Virus record (IMG/VR): IMGVR_UViG_3300023118_000024
Location: 1-29,793 of that record
Strand: one strand, 5' to 3'
Origin: a virus
Length of the DNA: 29,793 nt
The notes under the pieces were generated by a model. It worked only from the letters and a program-made list of their open reading frames with translations, ran no database searches and was not told where the DNA came from. Both the position numbers and the translations under genes were made by a program. Positions 25,056 through 28,818 of this stretch are shown here, in pieces. How positions within the stretch are numbered: the stretch's first letter is position 1; each line of letters opens with the position of its first letter.

Positions 25056-25416
25056 AGTGAATCAACCCAAAGGCGGCACCGCAGAGGCTACCACAACCCC
25101 GCTGGCTGTCGGCGACAAGGTCAGCTACGTCGCTATGAGCGATGGTGGCCAGGAATACCTGTTAGAGGTGCTGACTGAGCGCGATACCCTGAAGACGCAA
25201 CTAAACAATGCAAATCAGTTGCTGGACCGGCTTGCATGGCTGCTTGCGGAGGGCGTGCTTACATACAAACCTGAACACCCTGACGATAGTGAGTGGTTTG
25301 CCGAGGCTGAAGCCGCTCTGGAGTCCGCACATCAATACCAACTGGTGAACGGACAACCGCCAACCGAAAACTCAGAAAACACCACCGAGCAAAGTTCGGG
25401 GGTGCGGAATGCTTAA
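25051..25416 (+). CDS. Small early protein of unknown function
   Basis: A 121-residue protein from ATG 25051 behind the second leader copy. A flexible N-terminus (KGGTAEATTTPLAVG) precedes a probable coiled coil (LLEVLTERDTLKTQLNNANQLLDRLAWLLAEGVL) and a low-complexity Asn/Glu/Thr-rich tail. It resembles the Ead/Ea22-type small early proteins of prophages in overall look only. It overlaps the methyltransferase start by eight bases. Confidence 0.65.
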   Translation: MQVNQPKGGTAEATTTPLAVGDKVSYVAMSDGGQEYLLEVLTERDTLKTQLNNANQLLDRLAWLLAEGVLTYKPEHPDDSEWFAEAEAALESAHQYQLVNGQPPTENSENTTEQSSGVRNA

Positions 25417-27394
25417 GCGCCCCCTCACCCACTTCCACCTCTGCTGCGGCCTGGGCAGCGGCGCCGCTGGATTCAGCGACTCCAAGCCAGTTCTGGGCCC
25501 CGTGCAAGCTGAATGGCGCTGCCTGGGTGGCGTCGACGTTGACCCTGCTGGTTTACGCGACTTCCAGATGATGACCGGAGTGCCCGGCACCCTGATGGAC
25601 TTGTTCACCCGCGAGCAGTTCACGGCGTTCCACGGCCAGCAGCCACCCGCCGGGTGGATAGAGGCCACCGCCGAGGATCTGCGCCGCGCAGCTGGCAACG
25701 AAGACCCGGACGCGGTGTTCATCAGCAGCCCTTGCAAAGGGGCCTCGGGGCTGCTGTCCGAAACGATGAGCCAGACGCCCAAGTACCGTGCGCTCAACGA
25801 ACTGACGTTGCGCTGTGTGTGGCTGATGTGCGAAGCCTGGAAGCACAAACCGGTGAAGTTGATCGTGTTCGAAAACGTGCCGCGCCTGGCAACCCGTGGC
25901 CGCTACCTGCTGGACCAGATCACCAAGCTGCTCCGCCATTACGGCTACGCGGTAGCGGAAACCACCCACGACTGTGGCGAAATTGGCGGGCTGGCACAGA
26001 GTCGCAAGCGATTCTTGCTGGTGGCCAGACACGTCGAGCAGGTTCCTGCATTCTTGTATGAACCTGAAAAACGCAGTCTGCGCGCTGTCGGTGACGTGCT
26101 GAGCCGCATGCCGCTGGCCGGCGACATCGATCAGGCGGGGCCGATGCACCGCGTGCCGGCGTTGCAGTGGAAAACGTGGGTACGCTTGGCCTTGGTCGAG
26201 GCAGGGAAAGATTGGCGCAGCCTGAGTCGGTTTGCGATCGAGGGCGGCCATCTGCGTGATTTTGTGATCGTGCCGGAGTACCACAACGGCGTACTCGGAG
26301 TTGTCGATTGGGACGATACAGCCGGCGTGGTTGCAGGTGCGAGCCGCCCCATGAACGGCAAGTTTTCTGTGGCTGATCCGCGCCCTACCAGCAAATTCGA
26401 ATACACCCAGTACGGCGTGCTGCCCTTCGACCGGCACTGCGGCGTTGTCACCGGGCAGCGCAGCCCAGGACAGGGAACCTTCAGTGTTGCTGACCCCCGG
26501 CATGCCGGCCCCGCCAAACACAGCAACGAATTCCGCGTTATACCGTGGGACCGTTCAGCGCAATCAGTGACCAGCGCCCACGGCTCTGGGCATTGCGTCC
26601 AAGACCCACGTCGGGAAGGAAAGGGCTTCGGCAAATACCTTGTCACCGACTACAACAAGCCGGCCGGCACCGTCATCGCCGGCAGCACCACCGGGCAAGG
26701 TGCTTTCGCTGTGGCGGATCCTGCCTACAAGAACTGGCACCCAGGGGCCAGCACGCAAAAGCTGCGCATCACGCCCTGGTGCGATAACGCCAATACCGTG
26801 ACCGGCTCGCAACAGGTTGCCAGCGGCGCATTGTCGATCGCAGATCCGCGCCCTGGCATGTCACGTACCAAGGGTGACGCGTACCTGACTGGCGGGCATT
26901 ACGGTGTCGTCGATTACAACACCCCGGCTGGCGCCGTTTCTGCCAGTGCCTGCCACGACAACGGCCGGTGGTCGGTTGCAGACCAGCGCATGCCGGCACC
27001 CAACGATCGGCTGACCTGCGTGATCACCAGCCTCGACGGTACCTGGCACCGCCCATTCACCACCCTGGAACTGGCCGCGCTGCAATCGTTGTTTGATCCA
27101 GAGGACCATTGGTCCACGGATCCGCAGACCGCTCACGAAATTCAGGTGATGAAGCGGGTGCGCAAAATCGAGCAGGCACGGTTCTTCCTGCTGGATGGGG
27201 TCAACGACGGCAACCACCGGGAGCGGATCGGCAACGCTGTGCCGCGCGCAGCGGCAAAGGCGATGGCGGATGTGTTCGGCATGACTCTGCTGCTTTCCGA
27301 GGCTGGAGAGACGTTCATGCTCAGCAACGTGTCGATTTGGGTACAGCCGGTAGCGATCGCGCTGAGCGTGGCTCAGCAGGAGGTTGGCGTATGA
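25409..27394 (+). CDS. C5 cytosine DNA methyltransferase with six tandem repeats in the target-recognition region
   Basis: A 661-residue enzyme that would transfer a methyl group from S-adenosylmethionine to C5 of cytosine. Visible motifs: I, FHLCCGLGSGAAGF (9-22); IV, SSPCKGAS (106-113, catalytic Cys109); VI, FENVP (154-158); VIII, QSRKRFLLV (197-205); IX, RPFTTLELAALQS (548-560); X, RIGNAVPRAAA (606-616). It is far longer than typical phage enzymes (about 350-450 aa) because residues 294-533 hold six repeats ending in F-S-V-A-D-P-R-like blocks. No restriction enzyme is encoded nearby, so it is an orphan. Motif IV has Lys where most enzymes have Gln (PCK instead of PCQ). Confidence 0.92.
   Translation: MLKRPLTHFHLCCGLGSGAAGFSDSKPVLGPVQAEWRCLGGVDVDPAGLRDFQMMTGVPGTLMDLFTREQFTAFHGQQPPAGWIEATAEDLRRAAGNEDPDAVFISSPCKGASGLLSETMSQTPKYRALNELTLRCVWLMCEAWKHKPVKLIVFENVPRLATRGRYLLDQITKLLRHYGYAVAETTHDCGEIGGLAQSRKRFLLVARHVEQVPAFLYEPEKRSLRAVGDVLSRMPLAGDIDQAGPMHRVPALQWKTWVRLALVEAGKDWRSLSRFAIEGGHLRDFVIVPEYHNGVLGVVDWDDTAGVVAGASRPMNGKFSVADPRPTSKFEYTQYGVLPFDRHCGVVTGQRSPGQGTFSVADPRHAGPAKHSNEFRVIPWDRSAQSVTSAHGSGHCVQDPRREGKGFGKYLVTDYNKPAGTVIAGSTTGQGAFAVADPAYKNWHPGASTQKLRITPWCDNANTVTGSQQVASGALSIADPRPGMSRTKGDAYLTGGHYGVVDYNTPAGAVSASACHDNGRWSVADQRMPAPNDRLTCVITSLDGTWHRPFTTLELAALQSLFDPEDHWSTDPQTAHEIQVMKRVRKIEQARFFLLDGVNDGNHRERIGNAVPRAAAKAMADVFGMTLLLSEAGETFMLSNVSIWVQPVAIALSVAQQEVGV
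26288..27007 (+). repeat. Six degenerate ~40-residue repeats inside the cytosine methyltransferase
   Basis: Repeats start near residues 294, 336, 376, 411, 453 and 499. Each has a strand plus a W/Y/F-D block (VVDWDD, VLPFDR, VIPWDR, VTDYNK, ITPWCD, VVDYNT), then a V-T/A-G segment, and a closing block (FSVADPRP, FSVADPRH, CVQDPRRE, FAVADPAY, LSIADPRP, WSVADQRM). They are diverged at the DNA level, so they are old duplications under selection. Confidence 0.88.
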
Positions 27395-27654: not shown

Positions 27655-28533
27655 ATGCACACAATCTCCCCATACAAAATATCCGGGCCGACTGTTGTGA
27701 GCTTTTCCGGTGGCCGGACAAGTGCCTACATGCTGCGGCAGGTACTGGACAACAATGAAGACTGGAGCGATCTGGTGGTCACTTTCGCCAACACAGGGAA
27801 GGAACACCCCGCAACATTGGAGTTCGTGCAGGAATGCGCCGAGCGCTGGGCGGTGCCGATTGCCTGGCTGGAGTTCCGCGACGATAACGCTGGATTTGCG
27901 GTGGTGCATTACGCCACCGCCAGCCGCCTGGGCGAACCTTTCGAAGCGCTGATCCGTAAACGCAAATACCTGCCCAACCCGGTAACCAGGTTCTGCACCA
28001 TCGACCTTAAGATCAGGATCATCCACAAATACCTACGCAGCCTCGGGCTTTCAACCGAGGAAGCACCGGTGGACATGATGACTGGTATCCGAGCCGACGA
28101 GCCACGCCGTGTAGCGAAGATTCGACATCGTAAAAGCACCAGCGAAAGCAAGTGGGCGACCATGGCTATGCCCCTGGCAGACGCCGGTATCGGCGTACAG
28201 GACATAACGGACTTCTGGGCCAGTCAGCCATTTGACCTGATGCTACCGACGATCAACGGCCGGACACTGGAAGGTAATTGCGACTGTTGCTTCCTGAAGG
28301 GCGTCAAGCAGGTCTATTCAATCATTGCCAGCGACCGTGGGCAGCCGGTGCGCAAAGGCGACTGGTGGGCCAAGCAGGAACGGGAAGTGGTCTCCACGGG
28401 TGAATTCACCGGCGACGGCGCCCGCTTCCGCTTCGATCGCCCCAGCTACCAGCAAATGCTCGATTACTCAGATACCCAATTCGACATGTTTACCGACCAC
28501 GACGAGGCTATTGCCTGCTTCTGCGGCGATTGA
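27655..28533 (+). CDS. PAPS-reductase-like PP-loop (adenine nucleotide alpha-hydrolase) protein
   Basis: A 292-residue protein with the PP-loop SFSGGRTSAYM (residues 16-26), which binds ATP or an adenylated substrate. The family motif RFCTIDLKIR (112-121), a TGIRADEPRR block (143-152) and C-terminal cysteines NCDCC (208-212) and CFC (288-290) are also present. Phage members are annotated as phosphoadenosine phosphosulfate reductase family, but this does not prove sulfate reduction. The cysteines could hold an iron-sulfur cluster, as in DndC or tRNA-thiolating relatives. It is preceded by AAGGAGAG. Confidence 0.85.
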   Translation: MHTISPYKISGPTVVSFSGGRTSAYMLRQVLDNNEDWSDLVVTFANTGKEHPATLEFVQECAERWAVPIAWLEFRDDNAGFAVVHYATASRLGEPFEALIRKRKYLPNPVTRFCTIDLKIRIIHKYLRSLGLSTEEAPVDMMTGIRADEPRRVAKIRHRKSTSESKWATMAMPLADAGIGVQDITDFWASQPFDLMLPTINGRTLEGNCDCCFLKGVKQVYSIIASDRGQPVRKGDWWAKQEREVVSTGEFTGDGARFRFDRPSYQQMLDYSDTQFDMFTDHDEAIACFCGD

Positions 28534-28542
28534 GGACAGACC

Positions 28543-28818
28543 ATGAATACAGCCTTCATTCTCATGGCCCAATACGACGGCCAGGCAATTATCTCCCTGG
28601 AGCTAGTGTGTCGTGATTACTTCACGCACCTCACGCCAGAGATGTTCCAACGCAAGGTGATGAGCGGTCAGATCAAGCTGCCTATCACCCGCCTGGAACC
28701 GAGCCAGAAGTCGGCCAAAGGCATCCACCTCACCGACCTCGCTGTCTACCTCGACTTGCAGCGCGCCGCCGCTGTGAAGGAACACAACCAGCTCAACGGG
28801 ATAAAACACGCCGTTTGA
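28543..28818 (+). CDS. Pyocin activator PrtN-family protein
   Basis: A 91-residue protein matching the PrtN family: MNTAFILMAQYDGQAIISLE, then VCRDYFTHLTPEMFQRKVMSGQIKLPITRLEPSQKSAKGIHLTDLAVYLDLQRAA. GAGGACAG precedes ATG 28543. In P. aeruginosa PrtN activates pyocin genes. Here it converges with the integrase gene (26-base tail overlap), the position where small DNA-bending excisionases usually sit. It may therefore act as excisionase or activator; the sequence cannot separate these. Confidence 0.88.
   Translation: MNTAFILMAQYDGQAIISLELVCRDYFTHLTPEMFQRKVMSGQIKLPITRLEPSQKSAKGIHLTDLAVYLDLQRAAAVKEHNQLNGIKHAV

Follow-up and report, generated by a model that had tools for sequence, protein, structure and literature searches.

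A phage cytosine methyltransferase with an array of exchangeable recognition-type units, probably serving several target sites

The methyltransferase described here is probably a multispecific enzyme, in which an array of interchangeable recognition modules provides one target site per unit. It is encoded by an open reading frame of 661 amino acids on the plus strand, at 25409–27394 of the window. The window is the whole stretch of viral DNA that was analysed (29,793 nucleotides, IMG/VR record IMGVR_UViG_3300023118_000024). Between catalytic motifs VIII and IX the protein carries an array of repeat units. The number of units varies among relatives, units are exchanged as cassettes, and the units contain part of the TL element of C5-methyltransferase recognition domains.

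Judged by its motifs, its Pfam match and the predicted fold of its core, the protein is a C5-cytosine methyltransferase. Catalysis is predicted, and the catalytic residue, Cys109, is present. The conserved motifs all lie on the plus strand. Motif I (FHLCCGLGSGAA region; FHLCCGLGSG) occupies residues 8–19 (25430–25465), and its glycines are invariant throughout the family. Motif IV (SSPCKGAS, residues 106–113, 25724–25747) shows no variation at P108, C109 or K110 among 28 aligned members. It is followed by the invariant motif VI (FENVP, residues 154–158, 25868–25882) and by motif VIII (QSRKRFL, residues 197–203, 25997–26017), in which Q197, S198, R199 and R201 are invariant; the motif VIII stretch QSRKRFLLVA spans residues 197–206. 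Motif IX (WHRPFTTLELAALQS, residues 546–560, 27044–27088) has H547–P549 and T551–E554 invariant, and motif X (RIGNAVPRAAA, residues 606–616, 27224–27256) has I607–P612 invariant. Motifs I, IV (Pro-Cys), VI (ENV), VIII (QxRxR), IX and X are thus in order and conserved across 28 members. In motif IV, PCK replaces the usual PCQ and the lysine is invariant in the family. A lysine likewise follows the catalytic cysteine in the enzyme of Rhizobium phage RR1-A (PDCK).

The Pfam DNA_methylase match (E 6e-9, above the Pfam cut-off) covers residues 99–225 only, so the repeat array falls outside standard annotation. Among PHROGs, the protein matches phrog_32684 in its N-terminal part (E 2e-128) and phrog_116, "DNA methyltransferase" (E 1.5e-48). 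A Foldseek search with the predicted core finds DNMT1, DNMT2, M.HhaI and M.HaeIII.

The original prediction described six repeats of about 40 residues between motifs VIII and IX, at 26288–27007. A search with a profile of one repeat unit, which that prediction had proposed as a check, recovers six copies. They span residues 292–528, or 26282–26992. Comparison of the protein with itself agrees: the top self-match over 25 residues reaches a score of 65, while no match in 40 shuffles exceeds 38, and eight offsets score at least 40, against none in the shuffles. Since these scores lie far above the shuffled controls, the internal similarity is not due to chance.

All six units are read from the plus strand. 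Unit 1 (type 5, HNGVLGVVDWDDTAGVVAGASRPMNGKFSVADPRP) covers residues 292–326 (26282–26386) and scores 64 bits against the unit profile. Unit 2 (type 4, TQYGVLPFDRHCGVVTGQRSPGQGTFSVADPRH) covers residues 333–365 (26405–26503; 53 bits). Unit 3 (type 10, HSNEFRVIPWDRSAQSVTSAHGSGHCVQDPR), an exchanged cassette, covers residues 371–401 (26519–26611; 37 bits). Units 4 (type 0, FGKYLVTDYNKPAGTVIAGSTTGQGAFAVADPA), 5 (type 3, TQKLRITPWCDNANTVTGSQQVASGALSIADPRP) and 6 (type 1, TGGHYGVVDYNTPAGAVSASACHDNGRWSVADQRM) follow at residues 407–439 (26627–26725; 49 bits), 449–482 (26753–26854; 54 bits) and 494–528 (26888–26992; 56 bits). Each unit has 31–35 matched residues, and their starts are 36–45 residues apart. 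The consensus is [YFL]-G-[VI]-x-x-W-[D]-x-x-[AS]-G-[TA]-[VI]-[TA]-[GA]-(variable, 5–7)-G-x-[FW]-[SA]-V-A-D-P-R. It contains both blocks that had been picked out beforehand, V-x-x-[WYF]-[DNC] and S-V-A-D-P-R. Variability is highest in the loop (profile positions 20–25), and the V, the G and the V-A-D-P-R are conserved. The segment RLTCVITSLDG, just before motif IX, may be a degenerate seventh copy, as judged by eye.

The units can be compared with the TL element, (YFW)X(RK)X5P(STCA)PT(ILV)(TASV)X5-16H(PFYWL), which marks the recognition domains of C5-methyltransferases. The flanks of this motif touch DNA in M.HhaI and M.HaeIII, and modules of multispecific enzymes have been defined with its help (PMC2413257). 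The repeat units have the aromatic residue of the motif at the correct distance (−11), and the STCA, ILV and TASV positions are mostly satisfied. The T is present in about half of the units and is otherwise often A or V. Three positions differ: V stands in place of R/K, G usually replaces the second P, and the motif closes with D-P where the consensus has H-P. With the best of seven positions taken as anchor in units and controls alike, 30 of 43 unit types agree with the motif at four or more of eight positions, compared with 8.8% for shuffled units and about 5% for windows from the core. Matches of the unit profile to 28 canonical enzymes are weak, with a best HMM score of 4.9 against 2.8 for the best shuffled control, and the strongest of them coincide with the TL element, as at RVRSWDEPSFTIQAGG. 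In hhalign, the same comparison gives P 0.002–0.007 at low probability. Homology between the units and the canonical TL element is thus supported by these sequence comparisons, but not proven. If the units are recognition modules, the slot between motifs VIII and IX would hold more than one of them, in the form of six homologous units.

Relatives of the enzyme were gathered from IMG/VR, from genomes and from annotated phages. They come from phages of Pseudomonas, Achromobacter, Marinobacter and Sinorhizobium and from other proteobacterial loci. The family comprises 193 distinct proteins with 3–10 units each: three units in 6 proteins, four in 38, five in 37, six in 103, and seven to ten in 9. 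Protein length follows the relation 373 + 47 residues per unit (r 0.96 over the 193 proteins). In most members the first unit starts near residue 293, and therefore differences in length are mainly differences in unit number. A very divergent relative (L208:2468-4267, 33% identity) has kept about five units of the same kind, which indicates that the array is old.

Some relatives are interrupted. In two genomes, G100 and G076 (L101/L107 and L102/L105), a related methyltransferase is divided into two overlapping frames at the same point, between residues 189 and 194, and motif IV reads PPCKWFS in both. Either the two genomes have inherited a common frameshift or the enzyme is a split one. In Pseudomonas phage PA8 (L091, 2501–3543) the methyltransferase gene is disrupted: it matches in three pieces and lacks about 30%, and one open reading frame retains four recognisable units, one of which is partial.

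When the 1,049 units of the family are grouped at 62% identity, they fall into 43 types, which occur in 50 arrangements. The last position is almost always held by type 1, the final unit in 181 proteins. Types 5, 9, 15 and 32 are the usual first units, and the middle types (0, 2, 3, 4, 6, 7, 8 and 10) occur in many combinations and orders. Among 2,546 pairs of proteins with cores at least 95% identical, the arrays differ in 1,711 and the unit number in 717; there is some redundancy and relatedness among the IMG/VR records, so that these counts describe the collected set and not independent events. Some pairs whose core residues are 100% identical have four units in one protein and five or six in the other.

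Individual pairs give examples of the exchange. One relative, L298, equals another, L233, minus exactly one unit, and the two are 92% identical otherwise. Between L080 and L189, the core is 98.6% identical at the nucleotide level, units 1–3 are 100, 98 and 92% identical, and the last unit is 95% identical. Between these near-identical neighbours, one protein has type 10 and the other has types 7 and 3. L230 (types 9-8-6-1) and L271 (types 9-2-0-10-1) are another pair of different arrays on near-identical cores. In L180 and L295, unit 2 is 76% and unit 4 is 83% identical in nucleotides, and the other units are 93–100% identical.

The window enzyme fits this pattern. It carries type 10 at the place where 57 close relatives have type 7. 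Its unit 3 is 45–55% identical to the type 7 unit 3 of relatives with 92–98% identical cores, and its units 2 and 4–6 are mostly 88–100% identical to those of relatives with 97–98% identical cores. At the nucleotide level, identity to close relatives drops to 43–66% only over about 26489–26638 (roughly residues 361–410). Close relatives have two alleles of unit 1, types 5 and 9, and all four combinations of unit 1 alleles with unit 3 alleles are found. Conversely, some unit types remain 85–88% identical on cores that are below 72% identical, with their loops kept. Recombination, and not simple divergence, best explains this pattern of array variation in the aligned sequences.

A second group of enzymes has a comparable layout. 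The Rhizobium phage RR1-A enzyme (L334:41579-43672, 697 residues) is a member of phrog_116 and has nine TL-like elements, P-x-x-T-[IVLMA], in the slot between motifs VIII and IX. Its family of 78 relatives has 6–11 TL units of about 34 residues each, and length again follows unit number (r 0.96). The window enzyme shares the phrog_116 profile with this group. The closing motif of the unit is V-V-A-P-like in the RR1-A type, compared with V-A-D-P-R in the window enzyme, and the motif IV sequences are PDCK and SPCK. Homology of the two enzymes was tested by BLAST and no pairwise similarity was found. The weak profile match between their units (hhalign P 0.002, low probability) is only suggestive.

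RR1-A is named among the homologues of the approximately 700-residue enzymes JCM7686_0772 and JCM7686_2655 (PMC5537653). These Paracoccus prophage enzymes are described as relaxed, with partial protection at many different sites that share "CC" (PMC5537653). Together with Phi2LM21_p23 of Sinorhizobium and RR1-A, they make up a group of large (about 700 residues), relaxed-specificity m5C enzymes from alphaproteobacterial prophages. By analogy, the array of the window enzyme might bind DNA weakly and broadly, for example at CC, with no separate target for each unit. This reading is improbable. Discrete unit types, conserved loops and the exchange of one unit at a time are not expected from non-specific binding, and several modules would equally give partial protection at many sites. 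A multi-module array, known here from the homologue RR1-A, would offer a natural explanation for the partial protection seen in Paracoccus.

The original prediction allowed two forms of modular recognition, one long or degenerate site, or several sites as in multispecific phage enzymes. In the first form the units would stack as a solenoid or propeller and read consecutive bases, and the repeat number would set the length of the site. The regular period and the conserved framework of the units fit such an arrangement. However, the loss, gain and reordering of units on unchanged cores would alter the whole site each time. In addition, each unit has a variable loop of 5–7 residues by a TL-type element, not one or two residues that could specify a base. 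The structural check that had been suggested gives a confident catalytic core, with AlphaFold values mostly of 80–94 for the window protein (with 28 sequences) and for a three-unit relative (with 17). In both predictions the array has a pLDDT below 40, and no propeller, solenoid or array of hairpins is resolved; a search of solved structures by sequence gave no useful match for the array. Neither a propeller nor a solenoid can therefore be claimed. The long-site reading is unlikely and has gained no support, whereas the reading with several sites is well supported by the TL-type element in the units, by the range of 3–10 units and by one-at-a-time exchange on near-constant cores.

It is equally unlikely that one or two units do all the work and the others form an inert reservoir for recombination. 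"Pseudo" domains have been described for Bacillus phage enzymes, some units of the window enzyme are shorter or weaker (unit 3 has the lowest bit score of the six), and in many units the TL pair has A or V for its T. Against this, the preservation of loops on distant backbones suggests selection. Finally, the repeats might be an insert that binds proteins or acts as a scaffold and takes no part in DNA recognition. The low pLDDT of the array and the weak profile link to canonical recognition domains would be in keeping with this, but it is very improbable: the repeats occupy the place of the recognition domain, the stretch from motif VIII to motif IX has no other apparent one, and the units have TL-type elements.

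In the proposed multispecific enzyme, one catalytic domain would be served by an array of small target-recognition modules, about six in number and interchangeable, in the stretch that separates motifs VIII and IX. Each unit of about 40 residues would be a copy of an element that is normally single in a C5 methyltransferase. It would consist of a strand, a T-[VI]-[TAS]-[GA] turn, the variable loop of 5–7 residues, and the closing ADPR; the counterpart of the loop lies on the DNA in M.HhaI and M.HaeIII. A single module would dock its target beside the active site at any time, and the number of short sites methylated would equal the number of working modules. Phage recombination would then swap, add and delete units. 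One gene could in this way mask several host restriction sites on the phage genome, and the set of masked sites could change.

Since the 1980s, a few Bacillus phages have been known to encode C5 enzymes with recognition domains in tandem within a single protein. Like the window enzyme, these proteins (M.SPRI, M.SPbetaI, M.phi3TI, M.rho11sI and M.H2I) are orphan C5 enzymes encoded by phages, and their several short recognition modules follow one another between motifs VIII and IX, where the window enzyme has its units. They are multispecific (PMC8936443, PMC12707154), methylating several sites and giving protection against several restriction systems. By this analogy, each working unit of the window enzyme would most likely direct methylation to one short site, giving several sites in all. 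The SPbeta enzyme (443 residues) has two TL elements in its VIII–IX region. The window family differs from the Bacillus enzymes in the number of its near-regular homologous units (3–10, compared with a few), in its occurrence in proteobacterial phages, and in the shuffling of many cassette types among closely related members. On SPbeta mtbP the unit profile scores only −4.6 bits, which is no match. The window enzyme is therefore not assigned to the Bacillus SPR/SPbeta lineage, as only the organisation and the TL element are alike.

Another parallel is the HsdS subunit of Type I systems, whose specificity evolves as recognition modules are swapped while the frame stays constant. The window family likewise exchanges its units on a near-constant core. 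HsdS is an unrelated protein, with two domains per subunit, one bipartite site and adenine methylation; its domain layout is given in PMC12707154.

The prophage is P2-like and related to Citexvirus, and the methyltransferase gene adjoins its excisionase/integrase end. The methyltransferase had been called an orphan, and this holds for the predicted window proteins that were tested, its neighbours included, among which no cognate restriction endonuclease or restriction enzyme family was recognised. The enzyme may protect the phage against restriction. The product of the next gene (27655–28533, plus strand) is a PAPS-reductase-like ATP pyrophosphatase, and in PADLOC it matches SspD of phosphorothioate systems best (E 2.5e-15). 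A PAPS reductase is also found downstream of the methyltransferase in Dobby, D14A and RR1-A. A conserved partnership was rejected, since a relative of this gene lies within 2.5 kb downstream at only 10 of 177 loci. The gene at 28543–28818 (plus strand), which adjoins the integrase, encodes a PrtN-like protein (pyocin activator, Pfam PF11112, E 7e-29) that PHROGs calls an excisionase.

The array is real and more general than the original prediction had it, and the enzyme is probably a longer and combinatorial form of the multispecific kind. No description of such arrays in proteobacterial phages was found in the openly available literature that was searched, with subscription papers and REBASE outside the search. 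The chances are about even that they represent a widespread class of proteobacterial phage enzymes with a "specificity array". In this class, up to 10–11 independent modules per catalytic domain would be reassorted unit by unit, giving each lineage a changing set of 5mC sites against restriction. The natural arrays, with 3–10 units on often near-identical cores, are a ready-made experiment on the assignment of units to sites, on the importance of unit order, and on the number of modules that one catalytic domain can serve. If the proposal is true, the arrays would be a source of interchangeable modules for 5mC targeting, and they would explain why large phage m5C enzymes have been labelled "relaxed".
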